Positions 6,178 through 12,835 of a stretch of DNA of 34,296 nt are shown one piece after another. The stretch is taken from NCBI GenBank assembly GCA_023265625.1, contig JAHFST010000020.1:1-34296 (forward strand), written 5' to 3'. Each line of letters starts with the position of its first letter. The stretch's first letter is position 1. The notes under the pieces are model-generated. The model was not told the origin of the DNA. It did no database searches and saw nothing but the letters and a program-made list of their open reading frames with translations. The stretch is from Deltaproteobacteria bacterium (GTDB taxonomy: Bacteria; UBA10199; JACPAL01; JAHFST01). The position numbers and the translations under genes are program-made.

Positions 6178-7989
6178 ATGGAGTATCTGGTTAATCGTCG
6201 TGACATTGATTTTATTCTGAAGGAACAAATTCATTACGAAAAATTGTTTGAGTTACCGGAGTTTAAAGAATTCACGACCGAGATGTTTGACATGGTGTTG
6301 GATCAGTCGTTCAAGTTTGCCCAGCAGGAGATTGCGCCCCTCAATGCCTCGGGAGATAAAGAAGGTTGCCTGTTTGATGGCAAGACGGTGAAGGCCCCGA
6401 AGGGATACAAAGAGGCTTATCAGCATTTCGCCGAAAATGGTTTCATTGGAATGGATGTTCCTGCCACCTATGGGGGGCAAGGGTTGCCACTGACGGTGGC
6501 GATGCCCGCGTCGGAGTTTTTTAGTGGGGCGTCCGTGTCGTTTATGATGTACCCGGGGCTGACCCGAGGGGCGGCTCATCTGATTGAGACCTGTGGTTCT
6601 GAGGCGTTAAAAAATATCTATGTGCAAAAAATGTACTCTGGCGTCTGGGCCGGGACCATGTGTCTGACCGAACCGCAGGCGGGGAGTGCCGTCGGAGACC
6701 TGAAGACGACGGCCGTGCCGCAACCGGATGGAAGTTATAAGATCAAAGGCGGCAAAATGTTTATCTCCTCCGGGGATCATGATCTCACGGAAAATATCAT
6801 TCATCTCGTGTTGGCGAGGATTCAAGGGGATCCGGAAAATTCGACCAAGGGGATCTCGCTCTTTGTGGTCCCGAAACTGAAGGTGAAGAAGGACGGTTCT
6901 GTCGGTGAATCCAATGATGTGAAGACGGTCAATATCGAGCACAAGATGGGGATCAAGGGGCAGGCGACCTGCACTCTGTCATTTGGGGATAATGATCAAT
7001 GTGTGGGGCACCTGGTCGGGGAACCACGCTCCGGGATGAAACAGATGTTTCAGATGATGAACGAGGCGCGGCTGCTCTGCGGCATGCAGGGATTGTCGAT
7101 TTCTGGAACCGCCTTTGAGCATGCCTTGCAATACGCCAAGGAACGGGTGCAAGGGCAGGGCAAGACCATCGTTGCTTTTCCGGATGTGCGGCGGATGTTG
7201 ATGCTGCAAAAGGCCTACGTGGAAGGGATTCGTTCGCTGCTTTATCATACGGGGTATTACATCGACATGGGCAAGGGGCATCCCAATCCCGAGACGAAGG
7301 CCTACTATCAGGGGTTTGCGGATTTACTGACACCGATGTGTAAGGCTTATGGATCTGACATGGGGTTTAAGGTCACGGAATTGGCGATGCAGACTTACGG
7401 GGGCTATGGCTATATTTCCGAATATCCGATTGAACAGTACATGCGCGATGTGAAGATCTCTTCCATTTACGAAGGGACCAATGGGATTCAGGCCCTTGAC
7501 CTGTTGGGACGAAAACTGCCGCAGAATGGGGGACAGGTCGTGCAGCAGTTTTACGCGATGCTTGATGAGTTCGTGACCAAAAATCAAAATGAACCAGCCC
7601 TCAAGGTGGAATTGGGAGAATTCAAAAAGGCCTTGGATTTGATTGCCCAGGTGGCCATGTCCTTCATGGAGATGACGGGCAAGGGGGATTTTAATTATCC
7701 CATGTTATCAGCCACGCCTTTTCTCAATATGTTTTCCAATGTGGTGGTGGCTTACTACCTCTTGGATCAGGCGGTGATTGCCCACGTGAAGCTCGCCAAG
7801 CTGTTGGAGGAAAAAGTGGATGATCCCTCCCAGCACAAGGGGTTCATCAAGGGGAATGACGAGGCCGCCTATCTTGATGGCAAGATCAAAACGGCGCGAT
7901 TCTTTGTCCATCAGGTCTTGCCGACGGTACGGGCCACCGTCAAATCGATCAATTCAGGAGATCGCAGCGCCTTGGAGATCATACTCTAA
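6178..7989 (+). CDS. Acyl-CoA dehydrogenase, long (about 600 aa) FadE-type
   Basis: FAD-dependent alpha,beta-dehydrogenation of acyl-CoA, the first step of beta-oxidation. The 603 aa match the long subfamily that has an extra N-terminal segment ([12 protein letters not shown]) and an extra C-terminal helical domain. Visible motifs are [18 protein letters not shown] for substrate/FAD contacts, [12 protein letters not shown], and [16 protein letters not shown] with the putative catalytic Glu at 432. The start at 6178 has AAAGGA about 9 bases upstream. Its stop overlaps the pccB start (TAATG), so it is the first gene of the propionyl-CoA operon. Chain-length preference cannot be read. The company of PCC and mutase fits odd-chain or branched acyl-CoA breakdown. 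Confidence 0.93.
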
Positions 7990-9533
7990 TGTCTAATAAA
8001 ATTGCGGAACTCGAAAAACGTCATCAAGAGGCCCTGGAAGCCGGCGGGGCGGAGCGGATTGAAAAACACCACCAAGCGGGAAAATTGACGGCCCGGGAAC
8101 GGATTGATCATCTGCTCGACCCTGGCAGTTTTGTCGAGATGGATACCTTCGTGACGCATCGATGCACGGAGTTTGGCATCGACAAGCAAAAACCTTACGG
8201 GGATGGGGTGGTGACCGGTTATGGCAAGATCGAGGGCCGGATCGTGTTTGTCTTTGCCCAGGATTTTACCGTGTTTGGCGGTTCGTTGGGCGAGGCCTAT
8301 GCCAAGAAGATTTGCAAGGTGATGGATCATGCGATGAAGGTGGGGGCCCCGATGATTGGCCTGAATGATTCCGGTGGGGCCCGGATCCAAGAAGGTGTGG
8401 TAAGCCTGGCGGGTTATGCGGATATCTTTCAACGCAATGTGATGTCCTCCGGTGTGATCCCGCAGATCTCGGCGATCCTCGGCCCGTGTGCCGGTGGCGC
8501 GGTTTATTCGCCGGTCATGACGGATTTTATCCTGATGGCCAAGAAGACCAGTCACATGTTTATTACGGGACCCGATGTCATTAAGGCCGTCACCCACGAA
8601 GAGGTGAGCAAGGAAGATCTGGGTGGGGCGGTGACGCACAATTCTAAATCGGGAGTTGCGCACTTTTTGGCTAATAACGACCAAGATTGTTTGGACCAGA
8701 TCCGCAAACTCTTAAGCTATCTTCCCGCCAACAATATGGAGGATGCCCCGCACAAGGAGACGGGCGATCGTTGGGACAGGCGGGAGGCAGCGCTCGATAC
8801 CTTGATTCCGGACAATGCCAACAAGCCGTACGACATGAAAAAATTGATTGATTTGGTGGTCGATCCGTCGAGCTTTTTGGAGGTGCATGCCCATTACGCC
8901 AAAAATATCTTGGTGGGCTTCGCCCGTATTGGGGGCCAATCCATCGGTATTGTGGCCAACCAACCCGCGGTGCTGGCGGGTTGCCTCGATATCGACGCCT
9001 CGGTCAAGGCCGGACGTTTTGTTCGCTTTTGCGATGCCTTCAATATCCCCATCGTGACCTTCGTCGATGTCCCGGGATTCTTGCCGGGGACGGCCCAGGA
9101 GTGGGGCGGGATCATTCGCCACGGGGCCAAGTTGTTGTACGCGTATTGCGAGGCGACGGTGCCCAAGGTGACGGTGATCACCCGCAAGGCCTATGGGGGT
9201 GCTTACGACGTGATGAGTTCCAAGCACGTGCGCGGCGATGTCAACTTCGCCTACCCCAGCGCGGAGATCGCCGTGATGGGCCCCGACGGGGCGGTCAACA
9301 TTATCTTCCGCAATCAATTGGCGGGAGCGAAGGATGCGGCCAAGGAGAAGGACCGTTTGGTGGAAGATTACCGCAAGGCCTTCGCCAGCCCGTACAAGGC
9401 GGCGGAGCTGGGCTACATCGACGAAATTATCTTCCCGCGGGACACGCGACCGAGGATTATCCAGTCTTTGGAAATGCTAAAAAATAAGCGGGATAAGAAT
9501 CCGCCGAAGAAGCATGGGAATATCCCGCTTTAA
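7989..9533 (+). CDS. pccB: Acyl-CoA (propionyl-CoA) carboxylase carboxyltransferase beta subunit
   Basis: Transfers carboxyl from biotin to propionyl-CoA (or another acyl-CoA) to give methylmalonyl-CoA. The 514 aa are normal for PccB/MmdA. Two crotonase-type halves are seen: N-half with [13 protein letters not shown] and [17 protein letters not shown]-half with [28 protein letters not shown] and [17 protein letters not shown]. The start overlaps the acyl-CoA dehydrogenase stop by one base. The partner biotin carboxylase gene should follow directly but is displaced by 1.8 kb of repeats and two extra genes. Propionyl-CoA is the preferred substrate by context, because methylmalonyl-CoA mutase is in the same gene run. 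A decarboxylase role (MmdA) is less likely because the biotin carboxylase is nearby. Confidence 0.93.
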
Positions 9534-9536
9534 AGC

Positions 9537-9570
9537 AAATCCCCCCTTCCCCCCTTTTTCAAAGGGGGGG
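9537..9570. repeat. Palindromic C/G-rich repeat, copy 1
   Basis: AAATCCCCCC, TTCCCCCC, TTTTTC and AAAGGGGGGG in that order: a hairpin with C6/G7 arms, 3 bp after the pccB stop. It could serve as a terminator-like structure. It is the same orientation as copy 3 and opposite to copies 2, 4 and 5. Two degenerate copies follow at about 9616-9635 and 9646-9663 (CCTTTTAAAAAAGG and CCCTTTCAAAAAGG). Confidence 0.9.
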
Positions 9571-9675
9571 ATGTGGCTATTTCTCTTTTTGAAGAATTGG
9601 AATATGCCCTGTCTTATCCTTTTAAAAAAGGGATAGATCACTGTCTTTCCCTTTCAAAAAGGTACGTTGATGTTG

Positions 9676-9714
9676 CCTCCCCCTTTGAAAAAGGGGGATT
9701 AAGGGGGATTTAAA
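9676..9714. repeat. Palindromic repeat, copy 2 (left arm flanking the DUF559 gene)
   Basis: CCCCCTTTGAAAAAGGGGG is a near-perfect hairpin, followed by ATTAAGGGGGATTTAAA. It is inverted relative to copy 3, so copies 2 and 3 form inverted terminal repeats around the DUF559 gene. The DUF559 frame begins directly after it. Confidence 0.92.
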
Positions 9715-9715
9715 T

Positions 9716-10090
9716 CTGCTTCCCTACAACAAAAATCTAAAAGAGCCCGCTCGTCGTTTGAGAATAGAAATGACCGACAGCGAGAGGAAACTCTGGGCCA
9801 GGCTTCGTGGCAAGCAATTGGGTGGTATCCAATTCTATCGTCAGAAAACCATCGGAAATTTCATTGTCGATTTTTATGCGCCTAAAGCCAATTTGGTGAT
9901 CGAGGTGGACGGCTCACAACATTTGGAGGCGAATCATCTCGAGAAAGACAGACAACGGGATTCATTTTTGCGAGGGCAAAGATTACAAGTTTTACGGTTC
10001 ACTAATTTACAAGTTCTCCAGGAAATGGATGGGGTTTTGGAGTTAATTTTTAAGGTGATTGGTGGGAGTCTCGCCGCAAATCCCCCTTGA
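9716..10090 (+). CDS. DUF559 (Vsr/PD-(D/E)xK-like) nuclease-domain protein
   Basis: A small endonuclease-like protein of the DUF559 family, related to very-short-patch-repair nucleases. Motifs: MTDSERKLWARLRGKQL, FYRQKTIGNFIVDFYAP with a likely metal-binding Asp, and LVIEVDGSQH with the ExD pair. The frame upstream of the first TTG (9758) encodes LPYNKNLKEPARR, which is conserved at the start of this family. Translation therefore probably begins at or near the CTG at 9716, where relatives have Met. The last codons (AANPP) and the stop TGA lie inside repeat copy 3. The gene is thus fitted between two inverted palindromic repeats. It is unrelated to the pcc operon around it. Its biological target is unknown. 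Confidence 0.8.
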   Translation: MLPYNKNLKEPARRLRIEMTDSERKLWARLRGKQLGGIQFYRQKTIGNFIVDFYAPKANLVIEVDGSQHLEANHLEKDRQRDSFLRGQRLQVLRFTNLQVLQEMDGVLELIFKVIGGSLAANPP

Positions 10091-10112
10091 TCCCCCTTTT
10101 TCAAAGGGGGAG
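10078..10112. repeat. Palindromic repeat, copy 3 (right arm; contains the DUF559 stop codon)
   Basis: AAATCCCCCTTGATCCCCC, then TTTTTCAAAGGGGGAG. It matches copy 2 in inverse orientation. The TGA at 10088-10090 within it ends the DUF559 frame. Confidence 0.92.
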
Positions 10113-10146
10113 GTGGATGAATCTCTTCTTGGGTGAGATGTGCGGT

Positions 10147-10205
10147 AATGTATTTCCCCCCCTTTGAAAAAGGGGGGTAGGGGGGATTTAAGGGGTGGGG
10201 GATTT
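10147..10205. repeat. Palindromic repeat, copy 4 (left direct repeat of a 59-bp pair)
   Basis: It begins AATGTATTT, has the hairpin CCCCCCTTTGAAAAAGGGGGG, then TAGGGGGGATTTAAGGGGTG and ends GATTT. It is nearly identical over 59 bp to copy 5, differing only in homopolymer lengths. The stop codon of the minus-strand unknown gene (10204-10206) is formed at its right end. Confidence 0.92.
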
Positions 10206-11100
10206 ATCCCATCCCCGCGATTTCCCGTTCAACCTCTTGCAATGTTTTTTCTAACACGGCTACCATCACTCGGGCGGCATAAATGGGATCGCTTTCCAAA
10301 GGTTTGAGATGATGTGTTTTTGGATCAAACTTCATCGTTCCCTTCGATTCAAATTTTCGGTAGACGGTGCATTCGTAGAGATAACGAAAGGGACTGTGTT
10401 CCTCAAAGGTCGCCAGATGCTTGAGTTGCAAGAGTCGTTGCAAGAATTTTTGATGCAAGATGGCTAGTGCTCGCTCCGGCCCTGCTGGTTCTGCCTGTCT
10501 TTCCCGCAGAATATTGAAGCCAAAGGTAGTTCCCGGTTTTAGGCCGAAATCTTTCAAAAAAGCTAAGAGGCGATCGAGGGTCGGCAAATCAGCATTTGGC
10601 AGATGTCTTTCAATTGCCAGGATAGCGGTCTTGACAGCCAATGGACCGTGGGTTTGACCCACTTCAAGAATGATGCGACGATGACCCGTGGGGAGAAAGC
10701 GTCTCAAGACCTCATCATAACGTTCAACCATATCCAGAGTGGGAGATTCTGGAGGAGGCAGGTCCTGTTCCAGTTGTCGTTGTAGTTCCAATAGGTGATC
10801 GCGAACGACCGTCGCCATCCCTTCGATGAGGGGATGGAATTCAGCCCCTGACGCTTCGGCGCGTCCCAAAAAATGGTCGAGAGTCTGATATCCAGATTTT
10901 ATGGCTTGGGGATCATGGGGTGGCGTGAAGAGTCGTCCCACGATTCGTTCCCCATGGGCCTGTAGAACCTCCGCCAAGGCTTGTGTGATTGAGACAATAG
11001 GAGCCTCTAGGGGGACGCTGCAGACAAATTGTGCCCAGCCACGCACCAATGCCGGTGGAGTACTCAAACCAAGTAGTTTGGAAACTGTAGTGAGAACCAT
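10204..11100 (-). CDS. Hypothetical helical protein between direct repeats
   Basis: A 298-aa protein I do not recognise. It is soluble and largely helical, with no signal peptide or transmembrane segment. Notable stretches are VVRDHLLELQRQLEQDLPPP, RRFLPTGHRRIILEVGQTHG and FRYLYECTVYRKFESKGTMKF. No catalytic motif stands out. The start is ATG 11100 (or the GTG at 11103 immediately before it). A GATAAT box lies 6 bases upstream of the ATG, which would place transcription initiation at or near the ATG. The stop codon sits at the edge of repeat copy 4 and the gene is bracketed by copies 4 and 5. It runs against the flanking pcc genes, which supports insertion as a separate unit. Confidence 0.7.
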   Translation of the reverse strand: MVLTTVSKLLGLSTPPALVRGWAQFVCSVPLEAPIVSITQALAEVLQAHGERIVGRLFTPPHDPQAIKSGYQTLDHFLGRAEASGAEFHPLIEGMATVVRDHLLELQRQLEQDLPPPESPTLDMVERYDEVLRRFLPTGHRRIILEVGQTHGPLAVKTAILAIERHLPNADLPTLDRLLAFLKDFGLKPGTTFGFNILRERQAEPAGPERALAILHQKFLQRLLQLKHLATFEEHSPFRYLYECTVYRKFESKGTMKFDPKTHHLKPLESDPIYAARVMVAVLEKTLQEVEREIAGMG

Positions 11101-11105
11101 CACTC

Positions 11106-11111
11106 AATTAT
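11106..11111 (-). promoter_or_regulatory. Candidate -10 box (GATAAT) for the unknown gene at 10204-11100
   Basis: On the minus strand GATAAT is followed by TGAGTG and then ATG, so +1 would fall on or next to the A of the ATG. No convincing -35 element is seen. This is weak alone but matches the pattern at rplM, accC and the peptide-binding lipoprotein gene. Confidence 0.3.
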
Positions 11112-11209
11112 CGGTAGCGGCACAATAAAGTTGCTCCCGATTTACATACAATTCATGCATATTCGTTTGATATGAGAATAACACTCAATATGGAAGAGGG
11201 TCTCCTACT

Positions 11210-11268
11210 AATGTATTTTCCCCCTTTGAAAAAGGGGGGTAGGGGGGATTTAAGGGGTGGGGGGATTT
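11210..11268. repeat. Palindromic repeat, copy 5 (right direct repeat of the 59-bp pair)
   Basis: Same order of elements and same orientation as copy 4, 1.06 kb away, with the hairpin CCCCCTTTGAAAAAGGGGG and the tail GGGGTGGGGGGATTT. It ends 5 bp before the candidate promoter of the biotin carboxylase gene. Confidence 0.92.
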
Positions 11269-11272
11269 GAAG

Positions 11273-11301
11273 TTGACGGCTTGGGCACAACTCGCTACAA
11301 A
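11273..11301 (+). promoter_or_regulatory. Candidate promoter for accC, leaderless spacing
   Basis: TTGACG (11273-11278), 17-base spacer, TACAAA (11296-11301), then 7 bases to the ATG at 11309. Transcription would start at about 11308. There is no Shine-Dalgarno sequence before this ATG, consistent with a leaderless message. Such a promoter would restore expression of the distal half of the operon after the repeat/gene insertion upstream. Confidence 0.45.
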
Positions 11302-11308
11302 AGCCCCC

Positions 11309-12835
11309 ATGTTTAAAAAAGTATTGATCGCCAATCGTGGCGAGATAGCGGTGCGGGTGATTCGGGCCTGTCGTGAGATTGGGATCAAGACGGTGGCGGT
11401 TTATTCCGAGATTGATCGGGAGTCGCGCCATGTGCGTTGGGCTGATGAGGCCTATTTAGTGGGACCGGCCCCGGCCAAGGAAAGTTATCTGGTGGCCGAT
11501 AAAATCATCGAGGTGGCCAAGCGCAGTGGGGCCGATGCCATCCATCCCGGTTATGGTTTTCTTTCCGAAAATGCCGATTTTTCCGACCTCTGTGCCAAAA
11601 ATAATATCAAGTTCATTGGCCCGCGCGGCGACTCGATGCGCATGCTGGGAGACAAGGTGGCGGCCCGTCGGGTGGCGGCCAAGGTCAAGGTGCCGACGGT
11701 CCCCGGGATGACGGATCCGTTGGATTCGGTCGATCAGGCCAAGCAGTTGGGAGGGCAGTTTGGTTATCCTGTCTTGCTCAAGGCGCGTTCCGGCGGAGGG
11801 GGCAAGGGGATGCGCAAGGTGGAGCGCGTGGAGGAGATGGAATCGGCTTATCAAATGGCCTCCTCCGAGGCGCGATCTTCCTTCAATGACGATGCGCTTT
11901 ACATGGAAAAATATGTCGTGGGTCCGCACCATGTGGAGGTGCAGATCTTAGGTGATGAAGCCGGAAATGTGATCGCGATTGGCGAGCGGGAATGTTCGGT
12001 GCAACGGCGGCATCAAAAGATCATTGAAGAATCACCGTCGCCCTTCATCACGGAGGCCACGCGCAAGAAATTACTCGAGGCGGCCGTGATCTTGGCCAAA
12101 GAGGCCAAATATGTGAACGCGGGTACGATGGAGTTTTTGGTCGATAAGAATCAAGACTACTATTTTTTGGAGATGAACGCCCGATTGCAGGTGGAACACC
12201 CGGTGACCGAGCAGGTCTCGGGGATTGATCTGGTCCGGGCGCAATTGCGCATTGCGGCCGGAGAATCGTTGGATGTTATTGTAGGGGCGCCGCTTGCTGC
12301 GCCCCCACAGAACCGCGGTCATGCCATCGAATGCCGCATCTACGCCGAAGACCCCGATCAAGGCTTCATTCCATCCCCCGGAAAAATTGAGAGAGTGCGC
12401 GAACCCTCCGGCCCTTGGGTTCGGGTGGATTCAGCCGTCTATCCCAGGGCGGAGATTTCTGTGTATTACGATCCGATGATTGCCAAGCTGATTACCTGGG
12501 GACCCACCCGTGAAGAGGCCATCCTCCGGATGGAGCGGGCCCTACGGGAATATCAGATTGTGGGTGTGAAGACGAACCTCTGGTTTCATGAGGCGGTGCT
12601 GGCCCATTCGGAGTTTCGACAGGGGAAATATGATACCGGGTTTGTCGAACGAAACCTAGAGGTGCTCAAGCGCCTGGGACATGAGGGGCATGCGGGTATT
12701 GCCGCCATTGCGGCCCTATTTTTTCAACTCCAAGAGGCGAAGGTAGCGAGTCCGAGAGGCCCGGAGGGATCTTCGACGAATTCCAATGCTTCTTCTTGGA
12801 AACTGGCCGGGCGCCGGGAAGGGATGCGGTCATGA
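11309..12835 (+). CDS. accC: Acyl-CoA carboxylase biotin carboxylase subunit
   Basis: ATP- and bicarbonate-dependent carboxylation of biotin, partner of PccB. The 508 aa begin with the classical MFKKVLIANRGEIAVRVIRA. The ATP-grasp glycine loop KARSGGGGKGMRK lies near 157-170, ECSVQRRHQKIIEE near 227-240 and MNARLQVEHPVTE near 290-302. A tail of about 50 residues ends [12 protein letters not shown]. The biotin-attachment domain is absent from this chain and is encoded by the next gene (ATGA overlap), so the usual PccA is split in two. Near residues 324-334 the loop before RGHAIECRIYAED is about five residues longer than in E. coli AccC and is encoded by a 30-bp palindrome. The start is set by family homology; 14 spurious codons are open upstream. 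Confidence 0.93.
   Translation: MFKKVLIANRGEIAVRVIRACREIGIKTVAVYSEIDRESRHVRWADEAYLVGPAPAKESYLVADKIIEVAKRSGADAIHPGYGFLSENADFSDLCAKNNIKFIGPRGDSMRMLGDKVAARRVAAKVKVPTVPGMTDPLDSVDQAKQLGGQFGYPVLLKARSGGGGKGMRKVERVEEMESAYQMASSEARSSFNDDALYMEKYVVGPHHVEVQILGDEAGNVIAIGERECSVQRRHQKIIEESPSPFITEATRKKLLEAAVILAKEAKYVNAGTMEFLVDKNQDYYFLEMNARLQVEHPVTEQVSGIDLVRAQLRIAAGESLDVIVGAPLAAPPQNRGHAIECRIYAEDPDQGFIPSPGKIERVREPSGPWVRVDSAVYPRAEISVYYDPMIAKLITWGPTREEAILRMERALREYQIVGVKTNLWFHEAVLAHSEFRQGKYDTGFVERNLEVLKRLGHEGHAGIAAIAALFFQLQEAKVASPRGPEGSSTNSNASSWKLAGRREGMRS
12280..12309. repeat. 30-bp palindrome within the biotin carboxylase coding sequence
   Basis: Arms TGTAGGGGCGC and GCGCCCCCACA are complementary at 10 of 11 positions around an 8-base centre. 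It reads in frame as part of the loop VIVGAPLAAPPQ. Palindromes of this TGTAGGGGCG type are, as I recall, common as dispersed intergenic repeats in many bacteria, so this looks like a repeat element captured in a gene. Confidence 0.75.

Follow-up and report, generated by a model that had tools for sequence, protein, structure and literature searches.

Nucleases of the DUF559 family are widespread, but to our knowledge there is no consensus on what they do. In the deltaproteobacterial contig analyzed here (the window, 34,296 nt), a member of this family is enclosed by palindromic repeats so tightly that gene and repeat share bases, raising the question of whether the two belong together and, if so, what kind of system they form.

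Architecture of the locus

The frame between the repeats matches DUF559 (PF04480) with 115.5 bits against a cut-off of 20.6 over profile positions 2–108 of 109, and its translation reads ...LNLLPYNKNLKEPARRLRIEMTDSERK...LAANPP*. The inverted arms around it (copies 2 and 3 in Table 1) are 36 nt each, 97% complementary, and spaced by 366 nt, bearing out a sequence-only reading of this DNA that had placed the frame between inverted repeats. That reading also had the end of the gene right: NPP and the TGA (10079–10090, the stop codon being 10088–10090) are read from the right arm. Its third claim, a CTG in the place of an ATG, agrees with L204 and L205, the two nearest relatives sharing this repeat, which have ATG there, although the CTG (9716–9718) begins 5 nt past the left arm and not 1–2 bp. 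The next ordinary start is a TTG at 9758, and the window copy appears either to use the CTG as start or to have lost its start; the AAGGGGG of copy 2 may double as a ribosome binding site.

Five sites in the window contain the core CCCCTTT-N3-AAAGGGG (10 matches, every site being matched twice, vs. 0.30 expected by chance; 0 of 100 shuffles). These shuffles and the control placements described below rule out a chance origin of the repeat–gene layout. Each arm is in turn one end of a doublet (copies 1 and 2, copies 3 and 4), and the gene thus lies between two complete doublets; the doublets were not mentioned in the sequence-only reading. Each doublet consists of one C5 end and one C6 end, with the gene facing both C5 ends, and copy 1 pairs with copy 4 at 97%. 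The spacer of the left doublet (9572–9675) contains degenerate pieces resembling older repeat copies (TCCTTTTAAAAAAGGGA, CCCTTTCAAAAAGG).

The two copies of the extended repeat segment are nearly identical, and the 299-aa ORF between them shares one insertion with the DUF559 gene. The ORF matches no Pfam family, and a search of 45 other genomes of the phylum gave no homologue. It is therefore ruled out as the second component of a general system and is possibly a passenger. An Rfam search of positions 9400–11400 found no known RNA element.

Table 1. Features of the DUF559 insertion (window coordinates)
Feature	Position	Strand	Basis
Triplex repeat copy 1, outer "B" end (C6/G6; AAATCCCCCCTTCCCCCCTTTTTCAAAGGGGGGGA) of left doublet	9537–9571	-	repeat pairing
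Triplex repeat copy 2, "A" end (C5/G5); G-tail toward gene, hairpin on far side	9676–9711	+	
DUF559 (PF04480) nuclease gene, apparent CTG start	9716–10090	+	profile match, alignment, structure model
Triplex repeat copy 3, "A" end; encodes NPP and stop codon	10078–10113	-	
Triplex repeat copy 4, outer "B" end of right doublet	10155–10189	+	
Extended repeat segment, direct copy of 11208–11268	10145–10206	+	read from sequence
299-aa orphan ORF between direct repeat copies	10204–11103	-	
Triplex repeat copy 5	11220–11251	+	
Whole insertion, about 1.77 kb, in the carboxyltransferase/biotin carboxylase interval	9534–11308	.	missing in relatives

A triplex code in the repeats

Since the 1990s, E. coli has been known to contain a kind of repeat, successively named BoxC, PIT, and TM-ECO, to which neither a function nor a mode of spread had been assigned. 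H. influenzae was the third of the genomes from which PIT elements were originally reported. The triplets of purine-motif triplexes are G.G:C, A.A:T, and T.A:T. The tails of the repeats flanking DUF559 genes vary by lineage (GGGGGATTT, GGATGGGGG, GGGGTGG, GGGTGAGGGG, GGGGGTGTT), and a single rule covers all of them: read in mirror order, the purine arm of the hairpin gives the tail, each A appearing as A or T. When only G positions are used to anchor the register, A or T stands at 283 of the 295 positions opposite an arm A (96%), and the mirror is the better fit for 49 of 72 distinct arms, compared with 10 that are better fitted by a direct copy. The tail code is that of the purine-motif triplets, and the DUF559-flanking repeats therefore qualify, as sequences, as intrastrand-triplex motifs. 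Their pyrimidine–purine–purine (Y-R-R) blocks, with a tail mirroring the purine arm, match the sequence definition of the BoxC/PIT/TM elements, a kinship absent from the sequence-only reading. Furthermore, the tail lies on the side expected of a triplex motif in 220 cases vs. 58, and in the repeat nearest the gene it points toward the gene 109 times and away from it 36 times.

Both groups of repeats share the pyrimidine arm, the purine arm, the triplex-coded purine tail, and an intergenic location, and the C5 and C6 ends of the window doublets resemble the type A and type B copies of E. coli, whose inverted pairs always contain one copy of each type (PMC4666352). They differ in that the DUF559 repeat sequences vary by lineage and have a partner in DUF559 (YcjD in E. 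coli), whereas Holder et al. 2015 reported no mobility gene near TM-ECO motifs (PMC4666352). Triplex formation in vitro has been reported for the E. coli motif (PMC4666352), and for the present repeats it is predicted from sequence. In DNA folding energy, single repeats surpass shuffled sequences by only a small margin, because the C/G tracts pair in many ways, and hairpin stability was left out of the evidence for this reason.

Fold and relatives of the nuclease

The AlphaFold model of the window protein (pLDDT 86.4) was compared with known structures using Foldseek, matching NGO0050 of Neisseria gonorrhoeae (3hrl, E 1.6e-7) and, second-best, the EDxHD homing endonuclease I-Bth0305I (3r3p, E 1.1e-4, TM 0.63). 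The match to Vsr (1cw0) is weak (E 0.28), and PDB matches to enterotoxin B chains (E > 0.2) are noise. Residues E28, Q48, D57, F58, E68, D70, and G71 are invariant across 67 DUF559 sequences, and H74 is nearly so. The modeled fold and this acidic core indicate a PD-(D/E)XK nuclease of the Vsr/EDxHD fold, and YcjD had earlier been assigned to the PD-(D/E)XK superfamily (PMC1189080).

NGO0050 is a DUF559 structure solved as a structural-genomics entry, for which the literature searched gives no description of a function or of a link to repeats; a gonococcal DUF559 locus (L163) has a triplex-type repeat on both sides. I-Bth0305I has the fold of its catalytic domain in common with DUF559, and the insertion of a gene at a recognized sequence would fit homing. 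Unlike I-Bth0305I, the DUF559 gene here lies outside introns or fractured genes and has its own flanking repeats, which are also dispersed without the gene. Vsr and Caulobacter VsrA likewise share the fold; unlike Vsr, whose defining features are the nicking of T:G mismatches and a link to a cytosine methyltransferase, the window gene is repeat-flanked, and we see no link to mismatches or a methyltransferase. VsrA is itself a DUF559 protein, which induces the SOS response in the absence of a methyltransferase and has been proposed to act in mismatch repair (PMC12907096), and part of the family may function in repair.

Flanking repeats across bacteria

An enrichment of flanking repeats had been named beforehand as the result on which their association with DUF559 depended, and it is found in two sets of loci. 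A scan of genome contigs yielded 80 DUF559 loci spread over many phyla. At 48 of 78 of them, the highest-scoring inverted repeat around the gene reaches a score of at least 14, which none of 390 control placements at the same loci does. A second, independent set, drawn from the phylum of the window and including the host genome's own other DUF559 copies, gives 17 of 32 and 0 of 192. A repeat with C-hairpin and G-tail stands on both sides of the gene at 61 of 102 DUF559 loci from many phyla (vs. 0 of 408 control placements at the same loci) and on at least one side at 84 of 102 (vs. 29 of 408).

The motif search found no C-hairpin/G-tail motif at the remaining 18 of the 102 loci, several of which (L052, L107, and L110) do have a two-hairpin repeat that this search missed. 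At these three loci, from Clostridia, Flavobacterium, and Bifidobacterium, two successive hairpins are followed by a final G-rich end, which by sequence looks like a related but distinct architecture.

The stop codon is formed inside the right repeat at about ten of 66 loci (e.g. L204, L205, L095, L190, L192, L036, L003, and L166). In two elements from separate genomes, L204 (about positions 1090–1750 when oriented to the gene) and L205, the triplex repeats are themselves enclosed by a further inverted repeat (about CGAGTGGGTAAA / TTTACCCACT).

Cognate repeat families

The host genome (2.93 Mb) contains four DUF559 genes, three of which have three different repeats: the CTTTGAAAAAG type in the window (contig C19), the CTCCTTACAAAGGAG type (C31), and the CCTCTTACATTAAGAGG type (C36). 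A separate repeat family for each paralogue was not part of the sequence-only reading. The fourth gene (C26; L004, 1501–1749) is probably decayed, missing its N-terminal part and having a repeat on one side only. By pattern searches of the host genome, the window family comprises 24 exact and only 3 inexact copies, the C31 family 20 exact copies and one with a single mismatch, and the C36 family 9 exact copies and many variants. Most of these dispersed copies are inverted doublets, 33–67 bp apart, and among same-family inverted pairs within 1 kb, a gene-sized spacing occurs only at DUF559 loci. The C31 and C36 doublets share the topology of the gene-bearing element of their family, hairpin-tail-X-tail-hairpin for C31 and tail-hairpin-X-hairpin-tail for C36, as if they were gene-less versions of the DUF559 element. 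C36-type doublet ends read (A)TAACACC...GGTGTTA(T), and many of these doublets (L133–L162) open with TAACACC right at gene ends, where the first bases of the repeat can supply a TAA stop.

The pairing of protein and repeat extends beyond the host. The more alike two proteins are, the more alike their repeats tend to be, across phyla as well (Mantel rho 0.15, p 0.003; the result holds with repeats permuted within phyla), and flanked close protein relatives of other phyla in Desulfuromusa, Thermodesulfovibrionia, Scalindua, and Desulfobacca have the CCCCCTTTnnnAAAGGGGG form of the repeat. In the window's phylum, the median excess of triplex motifs over a reversed-pattern control is 90 in genomes with DUF559 and 10 in those without (p 0.004). 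Both this correlation and the Mantel rho are modest. In G008, a genome of the same class with a large triplex-motif excess, several of the eleven DUF559 matches are fragments with internal stops, which looks like repeated gain and decay of DUF559.

The sequence-only reading compared the locus to REP-associated transposase (RAYT) systems, and the likeness stands for the layout. REPIN-RAYT systems (REPtrons) and the DUF559 system have in common a small gene flanked by palindromic repeats, the intergenic dispersal of the same repeats, frequently in inverted doublets, a number of enzyme genes that in most genomes is one or a few, and vertical stability in some clades. The likeness does not extend to the parts: the enzyme of REPIN-RAYT is a Y1 HUH transposase of the IS200/IS605 type, whereas here it is a PD-(D/E)XK DUF559 protein, and in place of the GTAG/CGTC tag the DUF559 repeats have the mirror-coded third block. 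In the host genome, the repeats end in GGGGGATTT, GGGGGTGTTA, or GGGGAGAGGTC, and no GTAG/CGTC tag is found at the hairpin end. As in REPIN-RAYT, the flanking repeats recur elsewhere in the genome in inverted doublets. The DUF559 system probably works like a RAYT system, but it is not one, since it lacks these two defining features.

It is nevertheless conceivable that the repeats are ordinary REPs moved by a RAYT or another Y1 transposase, with DUF559 as a passenger or chance neighbor. The REPtron-like layout, the ten Y1_Tnp genes (the RAYT superfamily) of the host genome, and the occupation of the same E. coli intergenic sites by BoxC and REP/BIME alleles would agree with this, yet none of the ten genes has these repeats nearby, and we reject RAYT-driven repeats for the host genome on this ground. 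Together with the missing tag and the flanking of DUF559 loci but not of control placements, this makes the explanation very improbable in general. Our literature search, which covered sources outside subscription journals, found no paper linking DUF559 with REP-type repeats, and judged by title and abstract, none of 14 papers that name DUF559 appears to deal with such repeats.

Insertion sites and mobility

The window insertion lies between the genes for a carboxyltransferase (7989–9533) and a biotin carboxylase (ATG at 11309). In relatives, these two genes are neighbors, separated by 4 bp in G001, 5 bp in G013, and tens of bases in G019, showing that the block is missing there; by this comparison it is a recent insertion. 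The sequence-only reading had named, as speaking against its proposal, the situation that all relatives carry the same gene at the same locus without repeats; here, the gene is missing from the relatives' operon.

Presence/absence polymorphism is also found in Cyclobacterium, where copies at different loci have only some 700–900 bp in common. The site of L080 is without the gene in G047, with flanks 90–95% identical and 225 bp between them, and in G050, while G046 and G049 have part of the repeat array at this site and the gene is missing. A repeat block of about 115 bp stands on either side of the L080 gene as two direct copies, where G049 has a single copy and no gene, which looks like an insertion into a pre-existing repeat via repeat homology. 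Inverted repeats, a feature of classical IS elements and MITEs, are present; no target-site duplication is seen at the junctions compared in the window operon and in Cyclobacterium, where identities are too low for base precision. An origin from phages or plasmids is rejected, as only 3 phage and 42 plasmid records encode a relative, none of them close.

These sites bear on a reading in which the selfish element is the gene, of the homing type, and its enzyme cuts a repeat; repair from the gene-bearing locus, steered by the homology of the repeats, would copy the gene in, and the repeats would multiply by other means. The gene-free sites in the window operon and in Cyclobacterium fit it, with junctions that are only approximate and cutting that is presumed, as do the position of the window gene between two complete doublets, the two repeat blocks of L080 against the single one of G049, and the EDxHD homing endonuclease as second-best structural match. 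Homing alone, however, does not account for the separate dispersed repeat family of every DUF559 paralogue, nor for a repeat number that tracks the presence of DUF559. We consider it unlikely as the full account, although it competes closely with the reading that we favor, and both may belong to a single process.

In the Burkholderiales, the DUF559 gene occupies one syntenic place across Variovorax, Ramlibacter, and Polaromonas, as RAYTs often do, and by its position resembles a resident partner more than a transposon. The "mobile unit" of the sequence-only reading is thus supported for the window, where the operon site is empty in relatives, and for Cyclobacterium, but not for the Burkholderiales, and the vertical inheritance of some repeat/DUF559 pairs at one locus counts against a mobile system. 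Such stability would be expected if DUF559 were a Vsr-like host repair enzyme acting on mismatches or secondary structures, with the repeats being its substrate or gathering around it and no selfish mobility involved, and the Vsr-type fold and the SOS-linked VsrA (PMC12907096) point the same way. Yet matching repeats boxing the gene in many phyla and several paralogues with a repeat family each are unexpected of a repair enzyme, and the presence/absence and multi-copy patterns also argue against this explanation, which we regard as improbable.

A probable two-part system

We conclude that DUF559 and its flanking repeats probably form a two-part selfish system, similar to REPIN-RAYT in its effect but with a different enzyme and chemistry. 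In the mechanism we infer, a repeat in single-stranded form would fold into a hairpin, on which the G-rich tail could lie back as a third strand. The DUF559 nuclease, with its Vsr/I-Bth0305I fold, would recognize repeats of its own family in their folded state and nick or cut at or beside them, and repair of the break would copy repeat doublets, and occasionally the gene between doublets, to other places. These new places would be mainly intergenic and ones already holding a repeat.

A more specific proposal can be put forward only tentatively, and we would not count on it: that a Vsr/EDxHD nuclease recognizes the triplex of the repeat, or the hairpin beneath it, and thereby drives its spread, which would make DUF559 proteins the first class of non-HUH repeat-partner enzymes to be described and would explain the BoxC/PIT/TM repeats in very many bacteria. 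Joining DUF559 with BoxC/PIT/TM makes a single testable system of two orphans, one for which a related solved structure (3hrl) exists. Such a system would mean that REP-type partnerships arose independently a second time, on the basis of a restriction-like nuclease, and it would be a candidate for an enzyme that reads a DNA triplex inside cells. DUF559 is a likely partner enzyme for orphan BoxC-type repeats in very different bacteria.

ycjD and BoxC in E. coli

The ycjD–BoxC pair of E. coli K-12 offers a single gene that is missing from many natural strains. This DUF559 gene lies between sapF and fabI, with BoxC-type repeats downstream, and is found in phylogroups A, B1, and C and a few others (PMC12817139). 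Among 60 genomes taken evenly down the ranking of matches, the 37 ycjD-positive strains have 11–27 BoxC-type places (median 18) and the 23 negative strains 1–21 (median 3; p 1.8e-8). This correlation follows the phylogroups, and some ycjD-negative strains keep 9–21 copies; being confounded by phylogroup, the counts are consistent with the two-part model without being independent proof of it. The ycjD locus is unsuitable as an empty-site test, as ycjD-negative strains have an efflux operon there (PMC12817139).

Depending on the strain, the flgK/flgJ (L222, L227, L228) and argE/ppc (L221, L223–L226) intervals contain BoxC or classical REP/BIME elements at the same spot. They were rejected as clean empty sites, since the BoxC alleles are replaced by REP/BIME and there is no precise insertion point, and the pattern looks as if two unrelated repeat systems were using the same intergenic sites.
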